A stretch of 64,000 nucleotides of DNA from Lathyrus oleraceus (taxonomy: Eukaryota > Streptophyta > Magnoliopsida > Fabales > Fabaceae): assembly GCF_024323335.1 (NCBI RefSeq), contig NC_066585.1, positions 180,376,294 through 180,440,293 of the forward strand, in the 5' to 3' direction. Position 1 is the first letter of the stretch, and the number at the start of each line of letters is the position of its first letter. Below the pieces are notes generated by a model, which was given only the letters and a program-made list of their open reading frames with translations, was not told the DNA's origin and did no database searches. Shown piece after piece: positions 14,495-61,807 of this stretch. The position numbers and the translations under genes are program-made.

Positions 14495-15033
14495 AAATCA
14501 TTTTCTAAATAAAAGTTGGAAGAAAAAGGTTACCTGGATGGAATGCCCAGTCGTAATCCCGAATATTAGGCTCAAGCTGTAAGAGCTTGCAAGCCGTTAA
14601 TATTCGTCTTCTCTTTAATACTCCAATATTCAAAATCATTTTCTAAATAAAAGTTGGAAGAAAAAGGTTACCTGGATGGAATGTCCAGTCGTAATCCCGA
14701 ATATTAGGCTCAAGCTGTAAGAGCTTGCAAGCCGTTAATATTCGTCTACTCTTTAATACTCCAATACTCAAAATCATTTTCTAAATAAAAGTTGGAAGAA
14801 AAAGGTTACCTGGATGGAATGTCCAGTCGTAATCCCGAATATTAGGCTCAAGCTGTAAGAGCTTGCAAGCCATAAATATTCGTCTTCCCTCCAAAACATT
14901 CATAAATATCCGAATCATTTTCTTAGCAATATTGGAAAGAAACAGACTGCCTGGGTGGAATGTCCAGACGTAGTCCCGAGTATTAGACCCAAGCTGTAAG
15001 AGCTTTTAAGTCACAAGTACTCGTCTTTCAAAC
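14495..15033 (+). repeat. Hairpin unit array in element B 3' LTR
   Basis: Second copy of the 3611-4148 array: four units with the same stem arms. The third unit here keeps CGAATATT / AATATTCG, where the 5' LTR copy has lost one pair. Confidence 0.85.
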
Positions 15034-40989: not shown

Positions 40990-42119
40990 ACTGCCACATG
41001 TGCGCCAATATTCAAGCTCCTCCAGAAAGATCAGTCTCATGATTGGACCGAGGATTGCCAAAAGGCCTTTGACAGTATTAAAGAATATTTGTCTGAGCCT
41101 TCGATTCTGTCCCCGCCTATGGAAGGGAGACCGTTGATTATGTACCTGACAGTTATTGAAGACCCGATGGGTTGCGTCCTTGGTCAGCAAGACGAATTGG
41201 GAAAGAAATAGTATGCTATCTACTACTTAAGTAAGAAGTTCACTGATTGTGAGTCTCGATACTCAATGCTTGAGAAGATGTGATGTGCTTTGGCTTGGGC
41301 TGCTAAGCGCTTACGCCAGTATATGTTGAATCATACGACTTGGTTGATATCCAAAATGGATCCAATCAAGTATATCTTTAAGAAGCTTGCTTTAACTGGG
41401 AGGATTGCCCATTGGCATATGTTGTTATCTGAGTATGATATTGAGTATCGAGCTCAAAAGGCTATTAAAGGTAGTATTTTGGCTGACCACTTGGCACATC
41501 AACCAATCGAGGATTATCAGTCAGTTCAGTATGAATTCCCAGACGAGGAGATTCTGTATTTGAAAATGAAAGATTACGATGAGCCTATGCTCGACGAAGG
41601 GCCAGAACCTGGTTCCAGATGGAGCATGGTGTTTGATGGCGCTGTAAATCAATATGGAAATGGTATTGGGGCAGTGATTATTACTCCTCAGGGCACACAT
41701 TTTCCTTTTACAGTAAGGCTAACTTTCAAATGCACGAATAATATGGCTGAGTATGAAGCTTGTATTATGGGATTGGAAGAATGTATTGATCTTAGGATCA
41801 AGCATCTTAATGTTTATGGTGATTCGGCCCTTGTTGTTAATCAGATTAAGGGTGAATGGGAAACGAATCAGCCTGTCCTCATCCCATATAGAGATTATGC
41901 GAGAAGGATTTCAACGTTCTTCACTGAGGTTGACTTCCATCATATTCCTCGAGATGAGAATCGGATGGCAGATGCTCTTGCTACACTTGCTTTGATGATT
42001 GTGGTCAGACTTTAGAATGATTTTCCTAATATCACTGTGATGCGCTTGGACAGACCAGCCCATGTATTTGCAGTAGAGGAGGTGCAAGATGATAAGCCAT
42101 GGTATTATGATATTAAGTG
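40990..42119 (+). pseudogene. Element A: RNase H and second (archaeal-type) RNase H segment
   Basis: The frame continues from 27010 (His-Met-Thr-Ala, then Cys-Ala-Pro). First comes the degraded Ty3-type RNase H (MGCVLGQQDE, YYLSKKFTDCESRYS). Then from about 41626 comes a second RNase H with FDGAVNQYGNGIGAVI, NNMAEYEACIMGLE, YGDSALVVNQIKGEW and HIPRDENRMADALA, i.e. Asp, Glu, Asp and a final Asp in the order of archaeal/plant-type RNase H. This extra domain marks the Tat lineage. In-frame stops are TAG 41209-41211, TGA 41281-41283 and TAG 42013-42015. It is cut at 42119 by element C. Confidence 0.88.
42115..42119. repeat. TSD AAGTG of element C (partner 60575-60579)
   Basis: AAGTG precedes TGTCGCACC at 42120 and follows GTATGACA at 60574. 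Confidence 0.96.
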
Positions 42120-42984
42120 TGTCGCACCTCGAAAAAAAATGGGGATACGACTTCAAAGCAAAGCGCGATCGCACACTCGCAATGATGGACTGAACAGAGT
42201 CGCCACCGAACTTTATTTATTCCTAAAAAGGAAAGGGAAAATATCGATAAAACCCAAGACAAAAGAAAGGATAAGATATGGTCATCGCAACCAATATCAG
42301 GGTTCGGGAGTCGATTACGCAAGGGGAAGGTATTAGCACCCCTCACGTCCGTTGTACTCAACGGGAACCATTAGGTCAGTTGTGTGCGTTAGTGTTAGTT
42401 GAAATATTAGGCTTTTCTAGTTATTAGGTGGGAAAGAAGGAATAAAAGAAAGGAAAATGTTTTTGGATTTTTTAACGAAGGACTAAACCTAAGTTTTTTA
42501 TTAGTGGGCCTGACAAGATTTACAAATCCTGCTCCTACGTATCTCAACAGAGAAATCAAGGCTTACGTAGTTCTGGGTAGAAAAATGTTTGTTTGTTGGT
42601 CGATTTTTTAGCGAAAGCTATATTGTATTAATCGACGAAAACATTGTTTTACCCAAAACAGATGAGGAGTGGACGCATACCACACATCGAACGGATTTAT
42701 AGATCTACATTCGGAAAAGCGTCACTTATCTCGACTCAACAATTATGGCCGAAACATTGTTTTGTATCACTTAAGACAAGATACCTTTCGTTTATGAAAA
42801 GGTTTTTTGATTAACCGCACAGCGGCGAGAAAAGAATTTGATTGGTTGGATGCATTTTGAGTGATGGCGAGAACTTGGATGAGCGAGATATACATCTCGA
42901 ATCCTAGTCTCAGGAGTGCATGGTATACACCATGTTCCATTTCCATCTTTATTGAAAAAGTATTAAGGTAGGAATTAGGTATTT

Positions 42985-43650
42985 TGAAGTTTGAAAGACG
43001 AGTACTTGTGACCTACAAGCTCTTACAACTTGGGTCTAATACTCGGGACTACGTCTGGACATTCCACCCAGGCAGTCTGTTTCTTTCCAATATTGCTAAG
43101 AAAATGATTCGAATATTTATGAATGTTTTGGAGGGAAGACGAATATTTATGGCTTGCAAGCTCTTACAGCTTGAGCCTAATATTCGGGATTACGAATGGA
43201 TATTACATCCACGCAATCTTTTTCTTCCAACTTTATTAAGAAGATGATTTGAGATATTTGCAGGTGTTTTGGAGAGAAGACAAATATTTATGGCTTACAA
43301 GCTCTTACAGCTTGAGCCTAACATTCGGGATTACGACTGGATATTACATCCAGGTAATCTTTTTCTTCCACGCTTTATTTAGAAGGTGATTTGAGGTACT
43401 TACGGATATTTTGGCGAGAAGACGAATATTTATGACTTGCAAGCTCTTACAGCTTGAGCCTAATATTCGGGATTACGACTGGACATTCCATCCAGGTAAC
43501 CTTTTTCTTCACGTTTTAATAAAATGATTTTTATTAAAGAGAAGACGAATATTAACGGCTTGCAAGCTCTTACAGCTTGAGCCTAATATTCGGGATTACG
43601 ACTGGACATTCCATCCAGGTAACCTTTTTCTTCACAATTTATTTAGAAAA
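42985..43650 (-). repeat. Hairpin unit array in element C left LTR
   Basis: Five units, each about 122-140 bp, with the same arms as in element B (CGAATATT / AATATTCG, GGCT / AGCC, CAAGCT / AGCTTG). The first unit, on the plus strand at about 42998-43060, has CGAGTA / TACTCG and GACC / GGTC instead. A small CTGGA / TCCAG-type hairpin follows each. Confidence 0.85.
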
Positions 43651-44896
43651 TGATTTGAATATTAAATTAAAAACAATTAAAGTACCGAGGTTTGAAATTA
43701 TTGAAAATTAAATTGATGTTGCTTTAAGAGCTCATTGTAAGAAGGCCCAAGAGTAAGCCATGAGAGGTTGATGGCGATGCTTAAAAGCAATCGACTTACA
43801 AGGGTATGGAAATGGGCTCGACGTTGAATCGAGAATTAAGTGACACTTATCATTATTACTTTTTTATGTTTTTTTTTTATCAATGAAATTGGGATGATTT
43901 ATCATGATCGGAGCATACTCCACACATAAAAATAAATGATTCACATAAATCCCAAAGAAAGAATAATCAGATAGTAATTAAATGTGAGGATTAAGGAAAA
44001 TATGAGAAAGTCACAAAAAGTGCTGAAAAACCAAAACAACATGCCCAAGTATCGAACCCCGGACCAAAGAGGCAAAGAGCTATCTCCATCTCCACCAAGC
44101 CACTAATGGTCATCTGTTATACTAATAGCAAAATAGACATATGGCCCAGAATAAACGAAATAACAAAAACTAAAAAAAGTGAAATGGGCCGTAGGAGCTT
44201 GGGCTAAGACAAAATCAAGTGCCCAACAGTCCTTTAGACTGACCGGGTCCGGGTTGAAGGAAACCCACTTATTATTATAGTTAGAAACAAATTAACATTT
44301 TAAGGACAAGAAATTTTTAATAAAAATAAAACCATCTTATCTAAACAATTTCTTTTTCTTTTAGGCTTAAAGACAAATTAGTTAGAAATAGGATATTAAA
44401 ACCCACCATGTGTCTGTTTTTTAGCAGTGAAAAAAAATATTAACTTTCAAAAACCTGTAACGCTTAATTACCACTTATTCAACAATATCTCAACAATATC
44501 TCAACCTAATTTCCACAGAAAGAAAAGCAATATTAAAAAAGAAAAAACGAGAGAGACATTCTTCAATCCTCTACAGTAAGAAAAACAAATCCAAGTTAAG
44601 ATTGATATACCGTGTTTCCAAATGATTTCCGGTGAAGAAGTAGCTACTGAAACCGAACGGCGTTTTGTACGTGGTGGTGTATTTTGAGGTCGTTTGGTGT
44701 TCAGTGGTACTGTAGACGGAGGGTAAACCGCGATGGTCGCCGACTGAAGGAAGACGAGAACAGAGGATGTGCGGCGGCGTGCCGAAGGTTCGAAGGGAGT
44801 TTGTGAAGGACCGACGGTTTTTGTGTGTGGCGTTTTTGGGATTAGGTTTTTTTTGAAAGTTTTCGCCGCTCCCCCCTTCCTCTGAATCGCTCCCTC

Positions 44897-44905
44897 CTAT
44901 TTATC
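44897..44905 (-). promoter_or_regulatory. Likely TATA box of element C left LTR
   Basis: Minus strand GATAAATAG is followed by a GC-richer leader. The same lies at 56637-56645 in the other LTR. It is unlike the element B promoter. Confidence 0.5.
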
Positions 44906-45185
44906 TCACGGATTAGGGTTACAAATTGATGCTCAATGGTCCAATGGAGAAAGTCCCAGGATTGCTTTTTGATGCTCAGAGATGATTGCCCTGTTTGATC
45001 ATTGGACTCGGAAAGGTAATCTGATCATAACCTTTTTTCTTGAACTTTGTCTTGATCCCATTTTGGGGAATTTCGGGAACTTACTGGCTTGGTAATTATT
45101 TTGTGTTTTTTTGGTTACTGCAGTGAAATGGTGAAAACCTGAGGAGCTCAATCACGGTTCTGTTGACGGTTCAAAGAGAAAAACG

Positions 45186-45549
45186 GGGTAATTCCTTCTT
45201 CAGAAATAAAGTTAGCATTGATATTTAGCAACTTAAATCCACGTTTCTGAACAACAGCTTCTGCCACCACTTTAGCTCCCGACCATGTGATCAAATTTAT
45301 ACTAAGATCAACTTCATTTAATTGGCCATGACCTTCTTCCAATGCCTTAGTGATTATAACTGCACCTTCATCCTTCAATTCATTCTCAGATAAATTTAAC
45401 TTGGTGAGGAACTGCTTTGAAGATATACGGGCAAGCCACAGAAACAGCAGCTTTTGCAGTAATGTCATTTCCTGCCATATCCAAAATTTCCAGTGACGGT
45501 GTAGATTCCTTCAGAGCATGCGACAACGAACAGAGAAGCAAGTCCATCG
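45186..45549 (-). pseudogene. Captured fragment of a RanGAP gene (left LTR)
   Basis: Translation on the minus strand gives SLEILDMAGNDITAKAA, then after a frameshift near 45430 LTKLNLSENELKDEGA, GQLNEVDLSINLITWSGAK and FKLLNINANFISEEGI. This is the end of the leucine-rich-repeat domain of plant Ran GTPase-activating protein, which stimulates GTP hydrolysis by Ran for nuclear transport. Only about 120 residues are present; the plant-specific N-terminal domain, most repeats and the acidic tail are missing. The frameshift means no functional product. It is flanked by an unrelated VDAC fragment on the opposite strand. Recognition is from remembered family sequence and is strong over the LNLSENELKDEG and LLNINANFISEEG blocks. 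Confidence 0.85.
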
Positions 45550-45699
45550 GTAAGACGGCATGTCAATCATCAATGCGTCAATCATCAATGCATTTTTCTT
45601 AAACTTGTTCTGTTTTTCGCAGGTTCGGTGGTTTCGTGCAGAGTAGCTCATAGTCAAAATTGTACGCTCACACCAAACTTCCTAACAACATCATCAACA

Positions 45700-46105
45700 A
45701 TGTCTTCCAAAGGCCCCCGGTATTTTTTCCGACATCGGAAGATTGTCCAGAGATATCCTTACCAAAGATTACAACTCCGATCAACGGTTCGCAATATCCT
45801 CCTCCACCAATTCCGGCATCGATTTGCATTCAACGTCATTGAAGAGTAGAGGACTTTCCTCCGGTGATGTTGCTGCTCAAATTAACCACAAAAAGAAAAT
45901 ACTCTTCTTTTCAAAGTTGATACCGAATCAAGTGTGTTGATAACATTTACTCTCACAAATTTTGTGTCTTCTGCGAAAGCCGTTGCTTCTATTTGATTAC
46001 CTGATTACAAATCCGGAAAGATTGAGGTTCAATATCTTCATGATCATGCTGGTTTTACTACTTCTGTTGTTTTAAATTGCAACCCTGCTATTTGATTTTT
46101 CTGCG
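45700..46105 (+). pseudogene. Captured fragment of a VDAC (mitochondrial porin) gene (left LTR)
   Basis: From ATG 45700 the plus strand encodes a VDAC-like N-terminus scattered over frames: MSSKGP, then RDILTKDYNSDQRFAISSS, GLSSGDVAAQ, KVDTESSV, and LPDYKSGKIEVQYLHDHAGFTTSV. VDAC forms the beta-barrel anion channel of the outer mitochondrial membrane. About 130 of roughly 276 residues are covered, with several frameshifts and two in-frame stops. The 5' flank (45623-45699) looks like a short untranslated leader. The coding part shows no intron by eye, although plant VDAC genes have several, so a processed-RNA origin is possible. It runs against the neighbouring fragments, all on the minus strand. 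Confidence 0.85.
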
Positions 46106-46289
46106 TTGACTTGTGGAAGTGCAGGTTATGGTTTGGAACTGGAAATTTGCATCTGCTGTAGAAGATTTTGCACAAACACAGTCATATCAGCGGTGCTTTG
46201 TTTTGGATCTTCTGAATCATGTCCATCCATGATTTGAACAACGCTTCAACTGGAATTCTTTCAACAAATTTCAAAATTGGAACTTGGTA

Positions 46290-46608
46290 CCAATGATGCT
46301 CTGTTATCACAATATCTTTAGGATTTTGACCATGAACCAAACTGCTATACCGCGGCCCAGGACCCTCCTTACCGTATCCACATGAAGGCAATGCCGGCAT
46401 CAATGGCCAATATTTTTCATCCTGAATTCCAAGAATGACAGCATCATGAGCAAGAAAAAGAGTCATATGACTAGTGAGATTAAACGGTGCAGTAAGCCAA
46501 AAACCAGGTGGCACATTCAACTGAGTACCACCCTTATCCCCAAACTTAGATATAACAGAAACAGCTCTTTCAAAAGCCTGAGTATTAACCGTAACCCCAT
46601 CGCCAATC
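46290..46608 (-). pseudogene. Captured fragment of a GH28 polygalacturonase gene (left LTR)
   Basis: Minus-strand frame reads GDGVTVNTQAFERAV, then VPPGFWLTAPFNLTSHMTLF, DAVILGIQDEKYWPLMPALP, GPRYSSLVHGQNPKDIVITEH, and loses similarity at a frameshift near 46293. This is the N-terminal part of the pectin-degrading glycoside hydrolase 28 family: the GDGV start of the right-handed beta-helix and the PPG-WLT / FNLTSH signature. The catalytic NTD and DD motifs, further downstream in the family, are absent. At its upstream end it abuts the HSP110 fragment within a few bases. No enzyme can result. Confidence 0.87.
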
Positions 46609-47047
46609 CAGTAGCAGTAGTTTGATGAAGCAACCGAAGCGGGTTCAAACCAGCAATAGTTGCAGCATCCGAAACAGCTCTTCTCTGAAAATCAGTGAAA
46701 TAAACCGGAGTCCCAATGCAACAATCATTAACCGCCGCATTAAGAATCTTCTCAGCTATCTCTTTCATATTCGACAGCATCATAGCAAACACTTGCGTAG
46801 GCGTAAATGCCTTCACTTCCCCCAAGTACCTAGCCTGAATCAAAGGATATCCGTTTGGTCCTTCAGTGACAGTATAAGGCAGAGACTTAAGATCACGCTG
46901 CAAATCAGGATCCGAAAACTGTTTCCCAATAAGCCTCTTAATCTGTGAGATCGAATTCTTAGGGTTCATCATAGTTGAAGCAGCACCGGCAATACCAATA
47001 AACCGTTGCTTTTCACCAAAACAAACAATAGCAGGGGTTTTATTGTT
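46596..47047 (-). pseudogene. Captured fragment of an HSP110/Hsp70-15-type chaperone gene (left LTR)
   Basis: About 150 residues of nucleotide-binding domain are encoded without a stop: TPAIVCFGEKQRFIGIAGAA, MMNPKNSISQIKRLIGKQFS, TVTEGPNGYPLI, FTPTQVFAMMLSNMKEIAEK, CCIGTPVYFTDFQRRAVSDA and TIAGLNPLRLLHQTTATGLA. This is the ATPase lobe of the plant HSP110-like branch of the Hsp70 family, cytosolic nucleotide-exchange chaperones. The first phosphate loop and everything after the TTAT motif are missing. The reading frame changes at the polygalacturonase junction at about 46600, where the two share TTGGCGATGGGG. The intact frame may reflect recent capture rather than function. Confidence 0.88.
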
Positions 47048-47377
47048 AGTGAACAAAAACAACTGTTATTGCTGTTGCTATTGTTATTATGTCTTGCACT
47101 TTTAAAATTCTTATGCGCATTTTTTTGGATCTTTTTGCAGATGCAGGTTTTAATGCTTCCCTCTGATACCTAGTGGGATTCCGGCTAGGTGTACATTACT
47201 CGGAACAAGGTAATTTTCAATATCCCAAAGGATAGAAGCCGAGCCATCTAAAGAGCTACGGTGTTGTTGGCTTGAAAAAACACTGAATTATGCTTGCATT
47301 TGATTCAGTAATATTTTGTCCCTTCTACTCCAAGGGATCCCCGGACATTGTCGGTGTAAATCTGCTATTTGAGTTAG

Positions 47378-47445
47378 CCATCAGTGTACTAGAAAACCAG
47401 AACTTCCTTACGTATAATAGATAAGGAAGTAGCAATAACTGATGG
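47378..47445. repeat. Nested inverted repeat in element C left LTR
   Basis: Outer arms CCATCAGT (47378-47385) / ACTGATGG (47438-47445) enclose inner arms ACTTCCTTA (47402-47410) / TAAGGAAGT (47422-47430). All are perfect. It lies between gene fragments; function unknown. It is repeated at 59118-59185. Confidence 0.75.
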
Positions 47446-47537
47446 AGAATCAAATACGACGTCCGATACGCATATGGATCCGTGATTGAGGTGTCGTCCT
47501 GGTGTTATTTTGTACCGTGGTAAATCATTGGACTTAC

Positions 47538-47693
47538 CGGTTTTGTTGTTGCATTTGCAGGAAAACGGAATCTTAATGACTTGGACGGTAACGCGGGCGG
47601 TTGATGCTTCAGCGATGAGTAATGGCGGCTACAGTTTGGATTTGTGAAAAATGAAGCAGGTATGAGTGACAGAAGCAGGAGGTAAAGGATCAT
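47538..47693 (-). pseudogene. Unidentified exon-like fragment ending at a splice donor (left LTR)
   Basis: Minus-strand ATG at 47693 opens a 52-codon frame, Leu- then Ser/Arg-rich, without acidic residues, up to a GTAAGT donor at 47537-47532. Composition (many Ser, Arg, Leu and Pro, no acid) is like an organelle-targeting N-terminus, but I do not recognise the gene. It could equally be chance, since the plus strand here also has an acceptor-like TTTGTTGTTGCATTTGCAG ending at 47560. Confidence 0.35.
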
Positions 47694-47750
47694 TAGTCAA
47701 ATGATCAGCTTGAATAAACCTGGGGCACTTCCCCTGAAGTCTTCTCGGTT

Positions 47751-48030
47751 TCAACATTCCAAGTAGTAATAAAGTTGGCTTTCTTCATGCATCACCATCT
47801 TCCGGCCTGAACTGACGCCACTTCCATCTTGGTCATCAAAATGCTCTGACGCATTCATTAGATCTTGGGAAACCATTCCATTTTGCACATTCAAGAGCAA
47901 CGTCACTTCCATTTTCTTCACTGTATTTAACATCCATCGAGGTTGAGTTTTGCATTGTATCCTGAAGTCCATTATTCTGAGCAACAGAATCTACAAAAAC
48001 ACCGATATCCAGGGGTTTTAAGTATTCCAT
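47751..48030 (-). pseudogene. Unidentified coding-like fragment in two frames (left LTR)
   Basis: Two overlapping minus-strand frames (48030-47836 and 47984-47751) are hydrophilic and acidic: MEYLKPLDIGVFVDSVAQNN in one, ASEHFDDQDGSGVSSGRK in the other. The switch suggests one captured exon with a frameshift. I do not recognise the source gene. Confidence 0.35.
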
Positions 48031-48832
48031 GATTCTTCATTAATATTCTCCAAAGGTCTTCCAAGAACTCTAATGCAAAGGTGGACTAGACTTTGAGGCT
48101 TTTTCTTCTTAGATAGAAATCCGGGAAATTGAGGATGGTTGATTACGGCAATGGAGGACTTGGATTTGGAATTAGATTGGAATAGGGATTAGATGTGAAT
48201 TATGGTTATATCTCGGTTGTGATTTTTTCTTTTTTCTTTCTGATGAAATTCGGGAATTGGTTGTAATGTAGAAGTTAACGGTAGGATATGGATGTGATGC
48301 ATTGTTATTGCCCGAATGTTAAATGAAAACGTATGTATGAAAATGAGTTTGGAAATGCTTGAAAGTTGAATGTTATTGAATGTTATTGAATGTTATGAAA
48401 TGAGTATGTACTATTTTGATTTGGGATGCATTATGGATACAAAATGGATTTTGGATTTTGGATTTTGATTATAAAAATGGATGTGGATTTTTAGGAATAA
48501 TCCAATATTAGTTTGAATGTCAATTTAATTACTAATAACAAATCAGCAAAAAAAACCAAATTAAAAACAAATTAATCTATAATTCATTTAAAATTACTTG
48601 GATATCAACTCTAACGTTCATTTGGAAATAAAAATCGATTAGAGTTTTAATCATTAGTAAAAATAAACAATTAAGATTAAATTGACAATTGGAATTAAAC
48701 TTAATTTGAAATCGAATTAAAAATAAAGAAGAGTCAAGATATTAAAATCCATTTTATACTGATGAATGTATGCAAATGCAAAAATAAAAGAAAAAAATGG
48801 AAAAATTTCAGGATCAAAATCGGGGTATGACA

Positions 48833-48850
48833 GTTGCCCCTATTTAAGTA
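48833..48850 (-). other. Element C polypurine tract
   Basis: Minus strand TACTTAAATAGGGGCAAC, identical to that of element B, immediately precedes the 3' LTR. Confidence 0.78.
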
Positions 48851-49224
48851 TCTTCAACTAGAGAATATGAAGCAGTACACTCTTCATATGATCATAGTGG
48901 AAGATGATTAAATACTAAGAAGACCCGGATTTTGATCCTGAATCCCCATGACATGATGTGATATGATATGATATGCCATGATATGCCATGATATGCATGG
49001 ATGCATGATTCTTTTTTTTAATTTCTTCCCTGCTAGGGATATGGTGGACCCTTGACAGGGGATGCTACTAGACATACCAATATGGGGAATACTGATGATC
49101 CAAAGGGAGACAGACAAATGGTAAGAAACAACTTGCTGGGGAAACAGTCCTGTTGGAGAATCAGGCACACACTGGGGAGTAATCAAAATGAGATTTGATT
49201 AATCGATACTTGGGATACAAGAGG
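48851..49224 (-). other. Element C: tail between PPT and minisatellite
   Basis: No gene. It contains ATGATATG/CCATGATATG short repeats at about 48950-49010 and is otherwise homologous to 11641-11990 of element B. Confidence 0.6.
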
Positions 49225-49830
49225 TTTCGGTAGTAAGTTCACACATGACTTACTAAACCCGAATAAAGGAAAAGATGCTACAACAGGTTCATACATGACC
49301 TGACAACGCTGGGGAATAATCAAGGAGAAAACTCTTCGGAACAGGTTCATGTATGACCTGACACCGGAATAAGGGGGTTCAACAACAGGTTCATACATGA
49401 CCTGAATGGTATTGAACAAACAGAGAAAAATCTTCAGAGCAGGTTCAAGTATGACCTGACACCGGAATAAAGCTCAATGACAGGTTCATACATGACCTGA
49501 ATGGGATTGAACAAAAAATCTTCAGAGCAGGTTCAAGTATGACCTGACACCGGAATAAAAAGGTTCAACAACAGGTTCAGACATGACCTGAATAGGATTG
49601 AACAAAGATCTTCAGAGCAGGTTCAAGTATGACCGGACCCCGGAATAAAAGGTTCAACAACAGGTTCATATATGACCTGAATAGGATTGAACAAAGAATC
49701 TTCAGAGCAGGTTCAAGTATGACCGGACCCCGGAATAAAAGCTCAATAACAGGTTCATACATGACCTGAATAGGATTGAACAAAGAATCTTCAGAGCAGG
49801 TTCAAGTATGACCTGACCCCGGAATAGCAA
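49225..49830 (-). repeat. Element C minisatellite with dyad core
   Basis: About 13 copies of CAGGTTCATACATGACCTG (the reverse of the element B core) lie roughly 40-55 bp apart, with alternating spacers. It has far fewer copies than in B, which explains most of the 2-kb difference in body length. Confidence 0.9.
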
Positions 49831-52005
49831 CAATTGGACTTTGACCGTAAGCAATGGACTACAACCAGCTTTTAACGGATTTTGCCAACAATAATTGGAC
49901 TTGAAAATGACTGCGAAAACCGGATGTTGGTTTAAGGGCACCAAATACAAACTGGAATCAAAGGTCAAAGGATCATAGGATCGACAACAAGACCTGGATC
50001 AATGCAAAATGAGCACGAAGTACATTTCGGCTATGCATGATTTGAAATTCCTTTTATGCATGATATATGAATGATCATGGTTATGAGAATGCTGACACTG
50101 GGCAGACTGGGAGTTTGTAAAGGCTTTTTATGGAAGCTCATGATTCCTCAACACCGAGAACTCAACCAAATACTTTATGATAGATGTTGTCAAAGGAGCA
50201 TTCTATCAAGCTTGATGGCCACACCTTAGCCAATGGGATCCTTTTGGAGGATTAATGAATCGTGCTAGCATAATTTTCGGGCACTCGTCTTAAACTCAAT
50301 AGTTGTTGACGTATGACAGAATTTGTTTGAGCAGTTCGAAAGCACGAAGAAAGAGGTTCTGCCCCTCTGTGGCTCATCTTGCCCCAGTTTGTTGGGACTT
50401 TGGAGATGTTCACTTTGAAAGTGAGTTTGGAAACAACTTGCCATGAAACTACCTCGAGATGGCTTGCCCCAAGCGTTTGTAACTTGCAGCAGTCCGAACT
50501 TGACTAACCAAATGCTGGAATGGCAGACTCTTGGTTGATTGTCCTTTGGATAGCTGGACTCATTGAGCTCTGAGGTGGCTTGCCCCGGTCTGATTCTTGA
50601 AGCAGATTACTCTTGGCTAGATGACCCTTAGGGTGATTAGCTCGAATTAACTGATGCTCAAAGTGATTTGCCCCTGAATAGACTTCTTTCACTCCATCAA
50701 GTTCCTCAACTGTATATTGTTGGAATTTCTTGATGCTAAGCGTTGACTTGCAAATAAGATTGTTCATTCAAAAATGGTAATTTTAATTCAATGCTTATGC
50801 AAAAATTTGAAATCAAAATTTATTGATATGAACGGGGGAAATACAGTGAATGAGTCGTTGATAAGAACACAATGGTGATCAAGTCATTCACAGTATGCAA
50901 GTTGGTGCCATCAAATGATTAACAAAAACGCTTGGAGTCAAGTTAACACAACCTTGTTATAGTATGCTTTCAAAATAAACCATGTCTCAATTAGGTCTTT
51001 TAAGGGTTGTAACGTGGTCTGGTTCGCGGTTTCTTGAAACAAAAGGATATAAGGCTCAAAATTTGTTTTTTTACCCACCCCTTCTCCTTGATGATCTCCA
51101 GTTCCTACGTTCAGTTAATTCGATACACGTATTCGACTTCCAAGAGGGTTCGAAGGTGTGATGAGGATTCAAGACGAATTTTCTTGAAATGGCAGTCATC
51201 TTATTTTGTTTTTGCTGAGGATTTTGGTGACCTCTTTTGATTGATTTTCTTTATCCCTAATTTTGCCTGGACCGCTTCTCTGAAGCTTTTGGTCCATCGG
51301 GATGCCCTAACTTTTGCCTAAGTCATTTCGTGGTATTTGATTTAGCGGGCTTTTTTTTAATTTTTAAAGGTGTTGACTGCCACATTATTGGTGGATGAGG
51401 ATCAACCGACACTAATTTTAGCTTTTCTCAACTTCTTCGACACTTCAACATGTGCGCGAAGGATAACATGTGGTTGAACCTAATTGGAGGGTGTACATAT
51501 GGACGATTTTTTTTTGAAAGATCGGATGCACGATCAAACTATCTGAACATAACTACCCTGCCCCAGGTTAAGATTAAGGGTTTTAGATCCGAAATAAACA
51601 CCAACTTCTAGGCTCAAAGTGGTCGTCTAGGGATTAACATCCTTATCACTCCAGTGTTTGGGGATTTGAAACAATGCCTTACATCATCGACAAGGTTTTA
51701 CTCAAAAGCATACCACAACAATTTCAGGTGTTTCGTTTTCATCATCCTCCCTCCAATCTTTGTTAGCACAACGGTTTGATAAACAAAAGTGAATGAGAGG
51801 AGTATTTTGTTTTTGTTTTTTAACATAAATGAAAAACGAGTGAATACGAATGGATCAATTCAAAAGATGCATAAACCTTTCATTAATCTTACCAATTCAA
51901 AGAAAACAACAATGCTTAAAAGCAATTAACAGTCAACATGCAAGGAAACTACAAAAGAAATGCTGAAACAGCCAAATGATTGCCAGCTTTAGGGAATTGA
52001 TTTCT
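49831..52005 (-). other. Element C 3' untranslated region
   Basis: No supported ORF. It is homologous to 6861-8990 of element B in reverse, including the GGCAAAA-TTAG motifs near 51240-51320. Confidence 0.65.
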
Positions 52006-53007
52006 TCAAACTTGAAGATTGGGATCAACCAGCTTTTTGACATGATGATCTTCAAATTCTTTTCTTTCAATCTCATCGTCGAACGCAACCCTCTTGGATC
52101 CACTACTCACTTCTCCTTTTCTTTCATTGGTATAGGTCGTGACATTGGAAATCCAAGGCGGTATCTCAATGCTCTTACCAGGAAACAATGATAGCTCACT
52201 AGCCACATCCCTGACATCTTCCTTGTGGTACAAAACCTTGAGGGGTGTCAAGGGTCCTTTCCCTTTCTCATTACCTGGCTCAGAAATCAGAGCATATGTG
52301 CCTGAGCCTTCCTCCTTGAGTGTTGGTGACCTTATGTCAATTAATCCTTGCAGCTTGAGCTTAAAACTCATGCATTCCTCGATGGAGTGCCCCATTGTTC
52401 CAGTATGGTATTCACACTTGATCTTTGGGTGATCTTCTTCAAAAACTAAGCTCTTTTTGTTAACCAGTCCTCGTACCAAGGCTTTTAGCGCGAAGCAAGA
52501 ATCTAGGTCATGTCCTAATGCCCCTTTATGGAATTCACATGTTGCATTTGGATTGTACCATGGCAGGTATGGTGACACAGGCGTGAGAGCTCGAGGTGTC
52601 ACCAAAGCATTTTGGATCAGTTGCGGGTAGAGCTTGCTATATGGCACCGGAATCGAGTCATTGTGATCCTTGTTCCCCTTGTTCTGATTCTGATTTTTGT
52701 TTTGAACCTGGTTTTGGTGACTTTGAGGAGCAATAACCGGAGGATGTTGATGATGACGTCTTGAGGGAGGTCCATATACTGGTAAATGAGGAGTTGCCTC
52801 ATAGAATTTCCCTTGACTTGGGGTAACACCAGATGGATGCGGGGTAGTAGCTCTCTTTGTTGCAGCAATGTATATTGGGTGACCCTCTTTTCTCAACAAG
52901 ACTTGCAGGGTTTCCAAGATCCATCTTATTTGGCTCTTCAAAAGATTAAGTTCCTCCTTCATTGCTTCTTGGCCATTTCTTAGCTCTTCCATCATTTCCT
53001 GAGACAT
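52006..53007 (-). CDS. Element C mini-Gag: capsid-less Gag-like protein
   Basis: 333 codons from ATG 53007; upstream codons to 53055 lack an ATG. The architecture is the same as in element B: coiled-coil-like start (MSQEMMEELRNGQEAMKEEL), basic Gln/Asn-rich linker, CEFHKGALGHDLDSC and CEYHTGTMGHSIEEC knuckles, then an acidic to basic tail ending VDPNLQV. About 50 residues differ from B, with one 2-3 residue length change near the C-terminus, and no stop in either. Both knuckles are unchanged. Keeping such an ORF in two diverged, pol-less elements suggests selection; a structural RNA-binding role during packaging is my inference. Confidence 0.75.
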   Translation of the reverse strand: MSQEMMEELRNGQEAMKEELNLLKSQIRWILETLQVLLRKEGHPIYIAATKRATTPHPSGVTPSQGKFYEATPHLPVYGPPSRRHHQHPPVIAPQSHQNQVQNKNQNQNKGNKDHNDSIPVPYSKLYPQLIQNALVTPRALTPVSPYLPWYNPNATCEFHKGALGHDLDSCFALKALVRGLVNKKSLVFEEDHPKIKCEYHTGTMGHSIEECMSFKLKLQGLIDIRSPTLKEEGSGTYALISEPGNEKGKGPLTPLKVLYHKEDVRDVASELSLFPGKSIEIPPWISNVTTYTNERKGEVSSGSKRVAFDDEIERKEFEDHHVKKLVDPNLQV

Positions 53008-53840
53008 GGTTCTTTGTTCTAACGCGTGTTGAGAATCACTTTGCTTCACGGACAAAAGATGGATGAGTTTTTTTTGGTATTTTGTCTAGAGAATGACATG
53101 CATTATGATGCGATGCAAATGCAATGGAATGCGAATGAATGCAATGCAAGCCATGCACATTTGTTTTTTCTTTTCATACACGGGTTCAAAAGTCTGAGGT
53201 ACTGATGAATCTGATTGTTTTCCAAGAATAGGTTCTCACCGGGTATGATCTAGGTTTTTTGAAAAAGTTCCTAGAGTCATGGATCCATTAGACTGTTTGC
53301 TACCTGCGGAAACATACTTGCCGGGCATCAACTCCATCTAAAGAATCTACTCTAAGTGAGGTTCTCGCATCGATCCAACGAGAAATACATCTCGCAGACC
53401 CACACTACGCAACCATCTTTCCTAGTTGGGCAAAGAACTAAGGTTCTACAAATGGTTCTCAGAGTCATGGATCCCAAAGAAAATATCGAAGCTTACGGCA
53501 ACTTACTTGCCGAGCGACAACATCCTCTCAAGAATCTATTCTAAGTAAGGTTCTCGTACCGACCCAACGAGAAATACATCTCGCGGACCCGCACTACTCA
53601 ACCTCGTCCTATCTTATGTTTTTTTTCACTCTAGACTCGGGTGTAGAGTCTTTCCCACATGGTTCGCAATCAAATACCCAAGTACCAACAATCACAATAG
53701 AACCAATATACAACAGATATATCAATATAATAATAAAGATAAATAAAAGCAATAAATAAGGAAAAGCCACATAATTAAACAAACAAAGGCACACAAACGT
53801 CCTAACTAGGCTTGACTCTCTTAGGGATTGACTGATTACA
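53008..53840 (-). other. Element C 5' leader between PBS and mini-Gag
   Basis: No gene. It is homologous to 5040-5852 of element B, including the GAGAAATACATCTCGC repeats near 53385 and 53568. Confidence 0.7.
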
Positions 53841-53857
53841 CCCCAGCAGAGTCTCCA
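53841..53857 (-). other. Element C primer binding site, tRNA-Arg type with one mismatch
   Basis: Minus strand TGGAGACTCTGCTGGGG differs from the element B PBS by one base (C to A at position 4). Confidence 0.82.
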
Positions 53858-54724
53858 TCTGTCGCACCTCGAAAAAAAATGGGGATACGACTTCAAAGCA
53901 AAGCGCGATCGCACACTCGCAATGATGGACTGAACAGAGTCGCCACCGAACTTTATTTATTCCTAAAAAGGAAAGGGAAAATATCGATAAAACCCAAGAC
54001 AAAAGAAAGGATAAGATATGGTCATCGCAACCAGTATCAGGGTTCGGGAGTCGATTACGCAAGGGGAAGGTATTAGCACCCCTCACGTCCGTTGTACTCA
54101 ACGGGAACCATTAGGTCAGTTGTGTGCGTTAGTGTTAGTTGAAATATTAGGCTTTTCTAGTTATTAGGTGGGAAAGAAGGAATAAAAGAAAGGAAAATGT
54201 TTTTGGATTTTTTAACGAAGGACTAAACCTAAGTTTTTTATTAGTGGGCCTGACAAGATTTACAAATCCTGCTCCTACGTATCTCAACAGAGAAATCAAG
54301 GCTTACGTAGTTCTGGGTAGAAAAATGTTTGTTTGTTGGTCGATTTTTTAGCGAAAGCTATATTGTATTAATCGACGAAAACATTGTTTTACCCAAAACA
54401 GATGAGGAGTGGACGCATAACACACATCGAACGGATTTATAGATCTACATTCGGAAAAGCGTCACTTATCTCGACTCAACAATTATGGCCGAAACATTGT
54501 TTTGTATCACTTAAGACAAGATACCTTTCGTTTATGAAAAGGTTTTTTGATTAACCGCACAGCGGCGAGAAAAGAATTTGATTGGTTGGATGCATTTTGA
54601 GTGATGGCGAGAACTTGGATGAGCGAGATATACATCTCGAATCCTAGTCTCAGGAGTGCATGGTATACACCATGTTCCATTTCCATCTTTATTGAAAAAG
54701 TATTAAGGTAGGAATTAGGTATTT

Positions 54725-55390
54725 TGAAGTTTGAAAGACGAGTACTTGTGACCTACAAGCTCTTACAACTTGGGTCTAATACTCGGGACTACGTCTGGAC
54801 ATTCCACCCAGGCAGTCTGTTTCTTTCCAATATTGCTAAGAAAATGATTCGAATATTTATGAATGTTTTGGAGGGAAGACGAATATTTATGGCTTACAAG
54901 CTCTTACAGCTTGAGCCTAATATTCGGGATTACGACTGGATATTACATCCAGGCAATCTTTTTCTTCCAACTTTATTAAGAAGATGATTTGAGATATTTG
55001 CAGGTGTTTTGGAGAGAAGACAAATATTTATGGCTTACAAGCTCTTACAGCTTGAGCCTAACATTCGGGATTACGACTGGATATTACATCCAGGTAATCT
55101 TTTTCTTCCACGCTTTATTTAGAAGGTGATTTGAGGTACTTACGGATATTTTGGCGAGAAGACGAATATTTATGACTTGCAAGCTCTTACAGCTTGAGCC
55201 TAATATTCGGGATTACGACTGGACATTCCATCCAGGTAACCTTTTTCTTCACGTTTTAATAAAATGATTTTTATTAAAGAGAAGACGAATATTAACGGCT
55301 TGCAAGCTCTTACAGCTTGAGCCTAATATTCGGGATTACGACTGGACATTCCATCCAGGTAACCTTTTTCTTCACAATTTATTTAGAAAA
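54725..55390 (-). repeat. Hairpin unit array in element C right LTR
   Basis: Five units as in 42985-43650. Here the second unit keeps the CTGGA / TCCAG arms that are damaged on both sides in the left LTR. Confidence 0.85.
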
Positions 55391-56925
55391 TGATTTGAAT
55401 ATTAAATTAAAAACAATTAAAGTACCGAGGTTTGAAATTATTGAAAATTAAATTGATGTTGCTTTAAGAGCTCATTGTAAGAAGGCCCAAGAGTAAGCCA
55501 TGAGAGGTTGATGGCGATGCTTAAAAGCAATCGACTTACAAGGGTATGGAAATGGGCTCGACGTTGAATCGAGAATTAAGTGACACTTATCATTATTACT
55601 TTTTTATGTTTTTTTTTTATCAATGAAATTGGGATGATTTATCATGATCGGAGCATACTCCACACATAAAAATAAATGATTCACATAAATCCCAAAGAAA
55701 GAATAATCACATAGTAATTAAATGTGAGGATTAAGGAAAATATGAGAAAGTCACAAAAAGTGCTGAAAAACCAAAACAACATGCCCAAGTATCAAACCCC
55801 GGACCAAAGAGGCAAAGAGCTATCTCCATCTCCACCAGGCCACTAATGGTCATCTGTTATACTAATAGCAAAATAGACATATGGCCCAGAATAAACGAAA
55901 TAACAAAAACTAAAAAAAGTGAAATGGGCCGTAGGAGCTTGGGCTAAGACAAAATCAAGTGCCCAACAGTCCTTTAGACTGACCGGGTCCGGGTTGAAGG
56001 AAACCCACTTATTATTATAGTTAGAAACAAATTAACATTTTAAGGACAAGAAATTTTTAATAAAAATAAAACCATCTTATCTAAACAATTTCTTTTTCTT
56101 TTAGGCTTAAAGACAAATTAGTTAGAAATAGGATATTAAAACCCACCATGTGTCTGTTTTTTAGCAGTGAAAAAAAATATTAACTTTCAAAAACCTGTAA
56201 CGCTTAATTACCACTTATTCAACAATATCTCAACAATATCTCAACCTAATTTCCACAGAAAGAAAAGCAATATTAAAAAAGAAAAAACGAGAGAGACATT
56301 CTTCAATCCTCTACAGTAAGAAAAACAAATCCAAGTTAAGATTGATATACCGTGTTTCCAAATGATTTCCGGTGAAGAAGTAGCTACTGAAACCGAACGG
56401 CGTTTTGTACGTGGTGGTGTATTTTGAGGTCGTTTGGTGTTCAGTGGTACTGTAGACGGAGGGTAAACCGCGATGGTCGCCGACTGAAGGAAGACGAGAA
56501 CAGAGGATGTGCGGCGGCGTGCCGAAGGTTCGAAGGGAGTTTGTGAAGGACCGACGGTTTTTGTGTGTGGCGTTTTTGGGATTAGGTTTTTTTTGAAAGT
56601 TTTCGCCGCTCCCCCCTTCCTCTGAATCGCTCCCTCCTATTTATCTCACGGATTAGGGTTACAAATTGATGCTCAATGGTCCAATGGAGAAAGTCCCAGG
56701 ATTGCTTTTTGATGCTCAGAGATGATTGCCCTGTTTGATCATTGGACTCGGAAAGGTAATCTGATCATAACCTTTTTTCTTGAACTTTGTCTTGATCCCA
56801 TTTTGGGGAATTTCGGGAACTTACTGGCTTGGTAATTATTTTGTGTTTTTTTGGTTACTGCAGTGAAATGGTGAAAACCTGAGGAGCTCAATCACGGTTC
56901 TGTTGACGGTTCAAAGAGAAAAACG

Positions 56926-57289
56926 GGGTAATTCCTTCTTCAGAAATAAAGTTAGCATTGATATTTAGCAACTTAAATCCACGTTTCTGAACAACAGCTT
57001 CTGCCACCACTTTAGCTCCCGACCATGTGATCAAATTTATACTAAGATCAACTTCATTTAATTGGCCATGACCTTCTTCCAATGCCTTAGTGATTATAAC
57101 TGCACCTTCATCCTTCAATTCATTCTCAGATAAATTTAACTTGGTGAGGAACTGCTTTGAAGATATACGGGCAAGCCACAGAAACAGCAGCTTTTGCAGT
57201 AATGTCATTTCCTGCCATATCCAAAATTTCCAGTGACGGTGTAGATTCCTTCAGAGCATGCGACAACGAACAGAGAAGCAAGTCCATCG
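56926..57289 (-). pseudogene. Captured RanGAP fragment (right LTR)
   Basis: Second copy of 45186-45549 with the same frameshift and same extent. Its presence in both LTRs shows the fragment was already in U3 before this copy of element C inserted. Confidence 0.85.
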
Positions 57290-57439
57290 GTAAGACGGCA
57301 TGTCAATCATCAATGCGTCAATCATCAATGCATTTTTCTTAAACTTGTTCTGTTTTTCGCAGGTTCGGTGGTTTCGTGCAGAGTAGCTCATAGTCAAAAT
57401 TGTACGCTCACACCAAACTTCCTAACAACATCATCAACA

Positions 57440-57845
57440 ATGTCTTCCAAAGGCCCCCGGTATTTTTTCCGACATCGGAAGATTGTCCAGAGATATCCTT
57501 ACCAAAGATTACAACTCCGATCAACGGTTCGCAATATCCTCCTCCACCAATTCCGGCATCGATTTGCATTCAACGTCATTGAAGAGTAGAGGACTTTCCT
57601 CCGGTGATGTTGCTGCTCAAATTAACCACAAAAAGAAAATACTCTTCTTTTCAAAGTTGATACCGAATCAAGTGTGTTGACAACATTTACTCTCACAAAT
57701 TTTGTGTCTTCTGCGAAAGCCGTTGCTTCTATTTGATTACCTGATTACAAATCCGGAAAGATTGAGGTTCAATATCTTCATGATCATGCTGGTTTTACTA
57801 CTTCTGTTGTTTTAAATTGCAACCCTGCTATTTGATTTTTCTGCG
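57440..57845 (+). pseudogene. Captured VDAC fragment (right LTR)
   Basis: Second copy of 45700-46105, with the same frameshifts and a T-to-C difference near 57681. Confidence 0.85.
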
Positions 57846-58029
57846 TTGACTTGTGGAAGTGCAGGTTATGGTTTGGAACTGGAAATTTGCATCTGCTGTA
57901 GAAGATTTTGCACAAACACAGTCATATCAGTGGTGCTTTGTTTTGGATCTTCTGAATCATGTCCATCCACGATTTGAACAACGCTTCAACTGGAATTCTT
58001 TCAACAAATTTCAAAATTGGAACTTGGTA

Positions 58030-58348
58030 CCAATGATGCTCTGTTATCACAATATCTTTAGGATTTTGACCATGAACCAAACTGCTATACCGCGGCCCAG
58101 GACCCTCCTTACCGTATCCACATGAAGGCAATGCCGGCATCAATGGCCAATATTTTTCATCCTGAATTCCAAGAATGACAGCATCATGAGCAAGAAAAAG
58201 AGTCATATGACTAGTGAGATTAAACGGTGCAGTAAGCCAAAAACCAGGTGGCACATTCAACTGAGTACCACCCTTATCCCCAAACTTAGATATAACAGAA
58301 ACAGCTCTTTCAAAAGCCTGAGTATTAACCGTAACCCCATCGCCAATC
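58030..58348 (-). pseudogene. Captured polygalacturonase fragment (right LTR)
   Basis: Second copy of 46290-46608. The same VPPGFWLTAPFNLTSH block and junction with the chaperone fragment are present. Confidence 0.87.
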
Positions 58349-58787
58349 CAGTAGCAGTAGTTTGATGAAGCAACCGAAGCGGGTTCAAACCAGCAATAGT
58401 TGCAGCATCCGAAACAGCTCTTCTCTGAAAATCAGTGAAATAAACCGGAGTCCCAATGCAACAATCATTAACCGCCGCATTAAGAATCTTCTCAGCTATC
58501 TCTTTCATATTCGACAGCATCATAGCAAACACTTGCGTAGGCGTAAATGCCTTCACTTCCCCCAAGTACCTAGCCTGAATCAAAGGATATCCGTTTGGTC
58601 CTTCAGTGACAGTATAAGGCAGAGACTTAAGATCACGCTGCAAATCAGGATCCGAAAACTGTTTCCCAATAAGCCTCTTAATCTGTGAGATCGAATTCTT
58701 AGGGTTCATCATAGTTGAAGCAGCACCGGCAATACCAATAAACCGTTGCTTTTCACCAAAACAAACAATAGCAGGGGTTTTATTGTT
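58336..58787 (-). pseudogene. Captured HSP110-type fragment (right LTR)
   Basis: Second copy of 46596-47047. The translated part is identical to the left copy. Confidence 0.88.
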
Positions 58788-59117
58788 AGTGAACAAAAAC
58801 AACTGTTATTGCTGTTGCTATTGTTATTATGTCTTGCACTTTTAAAATTCTTATGCGCATTTTTTTGGATCTTTTTGCAGATGCAGGTTTTAATGCTTCC
58901 CTCTGATACCTAGTGGGATTCCGGCTAGGTGTACATTACTCGGAACAGGGTAATTTTCAATATCCCAAAGGATAGAAGCCGAGCCATCTAAAGAGCTACG
59001 GTGTTGTTGGCTTGAAAAAACACTGAATTATGCTTGCATTTGATTCAGTAATATTTTGTCCCTTCTACTCCAAGGGATCCCCGGACATTGTCGGTGTAAA
59101 TCTGCTATTTGAGTTAG

Positions 59118-59185
59118 CCATCAGTGTACTAGAAAACCAGAACTTCCTTACGTATAATAGATAAGGAAGTAGCAATAACTGATGG
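59118..59185. repeat. Nested inverted repeat (right LTR)
   Basis: Second copy of 47378-47445 with all four arms intact. Confidence 0.75.
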
Positions 59186-59277
59186 AGAATCAAATACGAC
59201 GTCCGATACGCATATGGATCCGTGATTGAGGTGTCGTCCTGGTGTTATTTTGTACCGTGGTAAATCATTGGACTTAC

Positions 59278-59433
59278 CGGTTTTGTTGTTGCATTTGCAA
59301 GAAAACGGAATCTTAATGACTTGGACGGTAACGCGGGCGGTTGATGCTTCAGCGATGAGTAATGGCGGCTACAGTTTGGATTTGTGAAAAATGAAGCAGG
59401 TATGAGTGACAGAAGCAGGAGGTAAAGGATCAT
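59278..59433 (-). pseudogene. Unidentified exon-like fragment (right LTR)
   Basis: Second copy of 47538-47693 with one Pro-to-Leu change. The splice-donor-like GTAAGT is kept. Confidence 0.35.
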
Positions 59434-59490
59434 TAGTCAAATGATCAGCTTGAATAAACCTGGGGCACTTCCCCTGAAGTCTTCTCGGTT

Positions 59491-59770
59491 TCAACATTCC
59501 AAGTAGTAATAAAGTTGGCTTTCTTCATGCATCACCATCTTCCTGCCTGAACTGACGCCACTTCCATCTTGGTCATCAAAATGCTCTGACGCATTCATTA
59601 GATCTTGGGAAACCATTCCATTTTGCACATTCAAGAGCAACGTCACTTCCATTTTCTTCACTGTATTTAACATCCATCGAGGTTGAGTTTTGCATTGTAT
59701 CCTGAAGTCCATTATTCTGAGCAACAGAATCTACAAAAACACCGATATCCAGGGGTTTTAAGTATTCCAT
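59491..59770 (-). pseudogene. Unidentified coding-like fragment (right LTR)
   Basis: Second copy of 47751-48030. Confidence 0.35.
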
Positions 59771-60574
59771 GATTCTTCATTAATATTCTCCAAAGGTCTT
59801 CCAAGAACTCTAATGCAAAGGTGGACTAGACTTTGAGGCTTTTTCTTCTTAGATAGAAATCCGGGAAATTGAGGATGGTTGATTACGGCAATGGAGGACT
59901 TGGATTTGGAATTAGATTGGAATAGGGATTAGATGTGAATTATGGTTATATCTCGGTTGTGATTTTTTCTTTTTTCTTTCTGATGAAATTCGGGAATTGG
60001 TTGTAATGTAGAAGTTAACGGTAGGATATGGATGTGATGCATTGTTATTGCCCGAATGTTAAATGAAAATGTATGTATGAAAATGAGTTTGGAAATGCTT
60101 GAAAGTTGAATGTTATTGAATGTTATTGAATGTTATGAAATGAGTATGTACTATTTTGATTTGGGATGCATTATGGATACAAAATGGATTTTGGATTTTG
60201 GATTTTGATTATAAAAATGGATGTGGATTTTTAGGAATAATCCAATATTAGTTTGAATGTCAATTTAATTACTAATAACAAATCAGCAAAAAAAACCAAA
60301 TTAAAAACAAATTAATCTATAATTCATTTAAAATTACTTGGATATCAACTCTAACGTTCATTTGGAAATAAAAATCGATTAGAGTTTTAATCATTAGTAA
60401 AAATAAACAATTAAGATTAAATTGACAATTGGAATTAAACTTAATTTGAAATCGAATTAAAAATAAAGAAGAGTCAAGATATTAAAATCCATTTTATACT
60501 GATGAATGTATGCAAATGCAAAAATAAAAGAAAAAAATGGAAAAATTTCAGGATCAAAATCGGGGTGTATGACA

Positions 60575-61807
60575 AAGTGCTTTCTTCAGAGTCAGATTTA
60601 CCCACCTGGGGCATCTGTGAAAGATAGAAAGACTTTGAGGAGATTGTCAGGCAGTTTCTACCTCAATGGCAATGTGCTTTATAAGAGGAATTTTGACATG
60701 GTTCTACTCAGATGCGTGGATAGACACGAAGCAGACCTATTAATGACTGAGGTCCATGAGGGTTCATTTGGTACTCATTCCAATGGACATGCCATGGCTA
60801 GAAAGTTGTTGAGAGCAGGCTACTATTGGCTGACAATGGAGTCTGATTGCTGCAAATATGTGAAGAAATGCCATAAGTGTCAGATTTATACGGATAAGAT
60901 TCATATTCCCCCGACACTTCTGAATGTGATTTCATCACCATGGCCTTTCTCCATGTGGGGAATTGACATGATTGGCATGATAGAACTGAAAGCGTCCAAC
61001 GGTCACAGGTTTATTCTCGTAGCAATTGATTACTTCACCAAGTGGGTTGAAGCGGCATCGTATGCAAACGTGACCAGGCAAGTGGTGGTGAAGTTTATCA
61101 AGAATTAACTCATATGCCGTTATGGTGTGCCCGATAAGATCATTACTGATAATGGATCTAACTTGAACAACAAGATGATGAAAGAGCTGTGTAGCGAGTT
61201 CAAGATCGCACATTATAATTCTTCTCCTTACAGACCCAAGATGAATGGGGTTGTTGAAGCTGCTAATAAGAATATCAAGAAGATTATCCAGAAGATGGTT
61301 GTCACGTACAAGGATTGGCACGAGATGCTGCCATTTGCTTTGCATGGATATCGTACATCTGTCCGCACTTCAACAGGGGAAACCCCTTTCTCTCTTGTTT
61401 ACGGTATGGAGTCTATGCTCCCAATAGAGGTGGAGATCCCATCAATGAGAGTCTTGATGGAAGCCAAGTTGGCTGATGCTGAATGGGTTCAGAGTCGTTA
61501 TGACCAGTTGAATTTAATTGAAGAGAAGAGATTGACTGTCATGTGTCATGGTCAGTTATATCAGCAAAGGATGAAGAAAGCCTTTGATAAGAAGGTCAAG
61601 CCTCGTGTGTTCCGAGAGGGTGACCTTGTGCTCAAGAAAGTTTTGTCTTTCGCACCCGATTCCAGGGGCAAGTGGACTCCAAACTATGAAGGTTCATATG
61701 TTGTTAAGAGAGCCTTTTCAGGCGGTGCTTTGATACTTACAACTATGGATGGGGAGGATTCCACTCGTCCTGTGAATTCAGATGCAGTCAAGAAATACTT
61801 TGCCTAA
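60575..61807 (+). pseudogene. Element A: integrase and C-terminal segment
   Basis: The frame continues from 42119 (Tyr-Asp-Ile-Lys, then Cys-Phe-Leu). It shows the zinc-binding HHCC region (RHEADLLMTEVHEGSFGTHS ... CCKYVKKCHKCQ) and then the catalytic core with MWGIDMIG, IITDNGSNLNNK and the Glu of MNGVVEAANKNIKK, i.e. the D-D-E triad. A C-terminal KVKPRVFREGDLVLKK block follows (GPF/Y-like region, usual in Tat) and the ORF ends at TAA 61805-61807. A single in-frame TAA at 61106-61108 interrupts the core. Integrase inserts the cDNA into the genome. There is no chromodomain. Confidence 0.88.

Follow-up and report, generated by a model that had tools for sequence, protein, structure and literature searches.

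Structure, age, and surroundings of element C

The window, meaning the whole 64-kb stretch of pea (Lathyrus oleraceus) DNA that was analyzed, contains a complete gag-only LTR element, termed C, and a sister gag-only element, termed A (Table 1). Pieces of plant protein-coding genes lie in both LTRs of C. The LTRs, the edges of which were read off their alignment, are approximately 6.7 kb long and show the TG...CA ends and 5-bp TSD of an LTR retrotransposon. The gag ORF, the PBS-like side, and the PPT side all agree in placing C on the minus strand. C splits a plus-strand resident pol, presumably Ogre-like, and the flanking ORFs lie at 41284–42015 and 60506–61807 in the ORF list. The anatomy of C and of its gene block is regarded as nearly certain.

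The two LTRs were 99.747% identical over 6715 bp (BLASTN). Their alignment contained 18 substitutions and one 2-nt indel, with 15 of the substitutions inside the LTR; the other three (42117, 42119, and 48833) fall outside it and were still counted in the K2P distance of 0.0027, the true value of which is slightly lower. Rates of 1.3e-8 and 7e-9 are used for dating LTRs, and at these assumed rates the divergence corresponds to 0.10 to 0.19 My. C is therefore a young element, and it is pol-less as far as found, as five pol queries from the 64-kb window gave no match in the internal region of C or A. Ogre/Tat elements have a tRNA-Arg-type PBS, and a tRNA match of the PBS-like site of C is assumed here. 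Because C has gag only, and not the gag-pol of the lineage, it was named a relative of Ogre/Tat elements and not a member. TR-GAG elements are defined by LTRs, PBS, PPT, and gag without pol. C resembles them in having LTRs and gag without pol and fits this definition, with the PBS-like sequence standing for the PBS, although gene pieces in the LTR are no part of it.

It is almost certainly wrong to regard the LTR as a misread assembly artefact or ordinary host locus. The TG...CA ends, TSD, PBS-like and PPT sides, and gag are all present, only 15 substitutions separate the LTRs, and the sister element has the same frame; the TSD and LTR structure already contradict such a reading. Elsewhere in the window, 27006–39643 consists of three near-identical copies, spaced by 6169, around two near-identical gypsy regions with minus-strand ORFs at 28694–33106 and 34863–39065, and it resembles a tandem element whose middle LTR is shared.

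Table 1. Positions of the elements and gene pieces in the window.
Feature	Position	Strand	Evidence or remark
Element C, gag-only LTR element, complete	42120..60574	-	LTR pair, TSD, gag ORF
Left LTR of C (3' LTR in element sense)	42120..48832	-	LTR alignment
Right LTR of C (5' LTR in element sense)	53860..60574	-	LTR alignment
TSD AAGTG of C, left	42115..42119	.	Edges of LTR alignment
TSD AAGTG of C, right	60575..60579	.	Edges of LTR alignment
gag ORF of C	52006..53085	-	ORF list; 85% to gag of A
PBS-like site of C, adjoining 5' LTR	53841..53857	-	Sequence comparison with A
PPT side of C	48833..48845	-	Identical to PPT side of A
TATA-like box of C, taken as U3 end	44898..44904	-	Nine motifs of this kind in the LTR
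WW-domain protein piece	47668..48021	-	Protein search; several frames; second copy 59408–59761
LysM/CEBiP-type piece	47416..47592	-	PDB sequence search; second copy 59156–59332
OST-HTH/NYN protein piece, from Met1	47162..47381	-	Protein search; second copy 58902–59121
Hsp70-family piece	46601..47041	-	Pfam 3e-49; second copy 58341–58781
GH28 polygalacturonase piece	46293..46607	-	Protein search; second copy 58033–58347
Probable HSBP (heat shock factor binding protein), N-terminal piece	46147..46230	-	Pfam 0.0068, under cut-off
VDAC piece, antisense to element	45700..46110	+	Pfam Porin_3, protein search; breakpoint near 46107
RanGAP piece, one frameshift	45190..45529	-	PDB and protein searches; second copy 56930–57269
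Sister gag-only element A	1142..15904	+	LTRs 1142–5019 and 12009–15904, TSD AAGGG

Gene pieces in the LTRs of C

The initial annotation had read pieces of at least four host genes in this LTR, namely, RanGAP, VDAC, GH28 polygalacturonase, and the Hsp70 family, together with two unrecognised coding-like pieces. The four families were borne out by matches in Pfam, PDB, or protein searches. The further pieces are indeed coding but no longer unrecognised, and since WW-domain, OST-HTH/NYN, and LysM (CEBiP-type) pieces were identified beyond the four, the gene origin stands whereas the number was too low. The LTRs of C thus carry coding pieces of at least seven unrelated plant genes, every one backed by a search, and an eighth piece is a probable HSBP. 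From the U3 start in element sense, the order is WW, LysM, NYN, Hsp70, GH28, probable HSBP, VDAC (antisense), and RanGAP. According to a hand-made segment list with HSBP included, identified coding sequence makes up approximately 2306 of the 2853 bp in 45190–48042. Apart from the antisense VDAC, all pieces run in element sense, giving six of seven or, with HSBP counted, seven of eight; the one-sided chance of this is 0.0625 (0.035 with HSBP), which is a weak orientation bias.

The searches differed in what they returned. Pfam gave a family for five of nine pieces and none for four, supporting VDAC, Hsp70, and an LRR; among ten pieces searched separately, WW (0.00083) and HSBP (0.0068) appeared, both below the cut-offs. 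In a protein search with twelve unassigned pieces, five of 2192 candidates reached E<=10, four of them WW-domain proteins and the fifth an OST-HTH/NYN protein. No convincing match in Pfam or the protein search was obtained for 44905–45189, 45530–45699, 47042–47161, and parts of 47382–47667, and Rfam gave no match at gathering score over 42000–60700. Among the matches listed, the nearest relatives of the pieces were Fabeae proteins.

The WW piece showed 79% identity over 42 aa to Vicia faba, and aa 42–151 fit within 327 bp with no intron-sized gap. The LysM piece matched a chitin elicitor-binding protein, which we take to be rice CEBiP, in the PDB sequence search (8.4e-7); the match covers 47488–47592 or less, the remainder being the same frame read on. 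Against a pea protein, the NYN piece reached 85% over 34 aa and 65% over 37 aa, with one frame change and one stop. The Hsp70-family piece presumably belongs to the Hsp110/Hsp70-15 subfamily. For the 105-aa GH28 piece, Pfam gave no match, and 381 of 554 candidates in the protein search reached E<=0.001; among the best 120 of these 381, a Lathyrus sativus protein with GH28 domains showed 86% over 105 aa. As four of these 120 models break near the piece end, the GH28 piece could be a single exon. The HSBP identity is probable only; this piece had no match in the PDB sequence search, and its peptide in the left LTR differs from that in the other LTR.

For VDAC and RanGAP together, the protein search gave 292 proteins among 870 candidates, of which the best 120 were listed. 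The VDAC piece matched Pfam Porin_3 at 8.6e-9, above the cut-off, with a second piece at 1e-5, under the cut-off. A query of two frames joined by X was 94% identical to a pea (L. oleraceus) porin-2-like model. More than one frame is needed to read the piece, which also has an in-frame stop, and aa 4–132 fit within 389 bp with no intron-sized gap. The adjoining 45625–45699 may be VDAC 5' UTR. The PDB matches of the RanGAP piece were ribonuclease-inhibitor-type LRR proteins, with RanGAP1 at 7.3e-9, and the piece was 94% identical over 81 aa to RAN GTPase-activating protein 1 of Vicia villosa.

The block recurs at exactly +11740 in the other LTR, as had been noted before, and its presence in both LTRs agrees with the earlier view that the pieces were part of the element before its last transposition. 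Host coding sequence thereby lies inside the replicating unit, as in a gene-transducing LTR element. The block had also been placed in U3; it is certainly inside the LTR, whereas its place in U3 depends on choosing the TATA-like motif at 44904, and the promoter of this LTR is presumed to lie there. Among 19 peptides located, 16 were identical in both LTRs and three (in NYN, HSBP, and VDAC) were found in the left LTR only. The GH28 and Hsp70 pieces have open reading as far as each extends, and the WW, NYN, VDAC, and RanGAP pieces have frameshifts or stops. Because these four are broken, the pieces look like passengers, probably without function, which speaks against the multi-gene shuttle, in a functional sense, of the initial annotation. 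Nearly all of the decay predates the last transposition, since no more than 15 substitutions and one indel separate the two LTR copies. It had further been suggested that each piece can make antisense RNA against its parent gene; within the element's own RNA, this idea would apply directly only to VDAC, because the other pieces are sense in that RNA.

Intron evidence and the VDAC chimera in other pea gene models

None of the pieces showed an intron-sized gap in the protein alignments. The absence of introns was deduced from these alignments together with artefacts in gene models. In soybean, wild soybean, and Medicago, VDAC genes have 5–6 exons (PMC12300895). Among the porin proteins aligned, 10 of 40 were irregular, and two of these 10 (P0154 and P0157) lose sequence right after SGK. 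These two apparently represent one soybean paralogue, relatives of which read on aberrantly at SGK, and the position after SGK is a possible exon edge on the evidence of these proteins. Because C reads straight through this place, a spliced-RNA origin of the VDAC piece is suggested, indirectly.

The VDAC piece was also compared with other gene models. P0126, a pea "porin 2-like" model in a cluster of three, has the peptide DFSALTCGSAGYG in common with C, and the intact pea VDAC P0128 reads DFSATIGTPGIAFG at this place. The start of P0126 is compatible with the shifted frame of C, and its tail was not found in the 64-kb window. As P0126 shares the VDAC breakpoint of C, the chimera is present elsewhere in pea and has a history beyond this insertion; as it continues into sequence absent from the window, the chimera may predate the LTR or exist outside it. 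P0127, in a cluster of seven, is another truncated VDAC model. P0147 and P0149 have one common foreign tail that differs from that of P0126, and VDAC pieces have therefore apparently been mobilized on more than one occasion. P0126, P0127, P0147, and P0149, all pea gene models with the look of truncated VDAC fused to foreign tails, are possibly TE-borne pseudogenes in the reference annotation.

Comparison with the sister element

A and C were 91.4% identical both in 3989 bp of internal sequence and in 1434 bp on the U5 side, and they share the initial 26 bp of U3 (92%). Between the 5.05 kb of C U3 and the 2.34 kb of A U3, no convincing similarity was found at word size 7, and Pfam gave no match on A's U3 in six frames at E<=0.1. 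Since A and C match everywhere but in most of U3, a whole U3 was exchanged or built in one lineage. Tandem repeats of approximately 140 bp lie on the U5 side (42949–43633 in C and 3507–4142 in A), several units of which contain TATA-like motifs. Repeats of approximately 90 bp lie near the PPT side (49328–49826 in C and 10304–11580 in A), the array being longer in A.

This comparison bears on the possibility that a genomic copy suffered a double-strand break in its LTR, that repair filled the break with a patchwork of DNA or cDNA pieces, and that the result was copied when the element transposed later. The abutting Hsp70 and GH28 pieces with their short overlap and the one piece in opposite sense would suit such an event. 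However, seven or eight separate, nearly all exonic pieces are much for a single repair, and the entire U3, not one patch, differs from A. Break repair was accordingly considered unlikely. At the Hsp70/GH28 join, the two readings overlap by approximately 7 nt (46601–46607).

Search for DNA transposon ends

Another possibility is that a DNA transposon with collected gene pieces (Pack-MULE, Pack-CACTA, or Helitron) was inserted in an ancestral LTR and then copied along with it. Several genes in mixed orientation are the usual content of such elements, the LTR contains one CACTA and six TAGTG motifs, and in P0126 other sequence follows the VDAC chimera. The LTR of C contained 299 gapless inverted pairs at 15 of 20 or better, compared with 137–180 in five shuffles. 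The best score was 17 in the real LTR and 16 or 17 in the shuffles (17 in three of the five). None of the 299 pairs had an 8–10 bp TSD, and one TSD match occurred in one of the five shuffled LTRs. Pack-MULE ends, which are TIRs with a TSD of about 9 bp, were thus not found in a scan limited to gapless 20-bp TIRs with 8–10 bp TSDs. The best long inverted repeat (44505–44526 and 48232–48253, 86%) has no TSD. Pack-CACTA elements have CACTA...TAGTG termini with a 3-bp TSD; in a scan for the terminal motifs alone, no CACTACAA or TTGTAGTG accompanied the CACTA and TAGTG motifs. A Helitron scan of this LTR (CTRR 3' end with hairpin) was negative at the first threshold, and relaxing it yielded nothing beyond weak hairpins. 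Together with the lack of intron-sized gaps in any piece, the TIR and Helitron scans make a nested DNA transposon fairly unlikely, although it may have been a decayed Pack element. Several pieces are preceded on the plus strand by stretches with a GCAG end, which at first resembled introns; this idea was dropped, as part of the stretch at 47143 reads as NYN coding sequence in reverse complement.

Proposed origin of the gene block

The preferred reading, given about an even chance of being right, is that an ancestor of C captured mRNA pieces by reverse-transcriptase template switching, or received such a U3 by an LTR swap, and was then amplified. C was probably moved by proteins of autonomous relatives. 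In this scheme, an ancestor of C would have acquired a U3 with pieces from at least seven host genes. While copying the element RNA at its 3' end, the enzyme would have switched to cellular mRNAs packaged alongside and then returned, once or over several rounds; as a close variant, it would have switched to another element RNA already bearing a gene-piece U3. Since U3 of both LTRs derives from the 3' end of a single RNA, the next transposition would have fixed the set of pieces in both. As decaying passengers, the pieces would now precede the presumed promoter and occupy the 3' untranslated portion of the element RNA. Capture at the RNA level and the number of steps are presumed in this account.

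Several observations were counted for template switching: a complete element with TSD, seven unrelated genes supported by searches, the absence of intron-sized gaps, the reading of C through a possible VDAC exon edge, six of seven pieces in element sense, the overlap of approximately 7 nt at the Hsp70/GH28 join, and a sister element that is alike elsewhere but has an unrelated U3 without a Pfam match. Transduced genes are said to sit usually in element sense (PMC7264820), and an LTR change by template switch has been published for BARE-2/Wis-2 (PMC13317346). Counted against it were the antisense VDAC, which simple mRNA switching does not give, the weak orientation bias, the possibly single exon of GH28, the continuation of P0126 from the VDAC breakpoint into sequence outside the window, and the excess of inverted pairs over the shuffles, although none has an 8–10 bp TSD. 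A more far-reaching proposal is held only tentatively, as somewhat doubtful: the U3 of this gag-only lineage may be a capture site where reverse transcriptase repeatedly stitched many spliced host mRNA pieces, forming an LTR-borne library that would replicate with the family and be transcribed in sense and, for VDAC, in antisense.

Relation to known systems and significance

Pack-MULE, Helitron, and Tgm-Express elements carry several host gene pieces per mobile unit; C is alike in multi-gene content and differs in having no convincing transposon ends. In Bs1 of maize, three genes are reportedly fused in an internal ORF, whereas C has at least seven broken pieces in the LTR. Bs1 and Cassandra are the nearest precedents of C. 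Bs1, as cited in PMC13317346 and PMC7264820, is like C an LTR element carrying sequence from two or more host genes. Cassandra resembles C in having host-derived sequence in the LTR of a nonautonomous element, but there 5S rRNA gene sequence is retained as a promoter, whereas C has decayed protein-gene pieces (PMC10853983). In BARE-2/Wis-2 and Veju, new LTR or body sequence is credited to template switching, as proposed for C, but its source is another retroelement or unknown DNA and not many host genes (PMC13317346).

In maize B73, a survey counted 425 LTR elements with gene fragments and at least 189 captures (PMC2774510), and in rice and sorghum 672 and 1343 captured genes were counted (PMC3726574). 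The maize elements captured host gene fragments as C did. Under the conditions of that survey, no element had fragments of more than one standard nuclear gene, compared with at least seven gene pieces in C, all in the LTR (PMC2774510). Among the literature matches listed, no title or abstract opening described an LTR with several host genes.

The finding also matters for annotation, as a pea gene model called "porin 2-like" has the breakpoint of the chimera in C. Should the family prove multi-copy, a comparison among its members would reveal in what order the pieces were captured and whether mRNA template switching builds plant LTRs.
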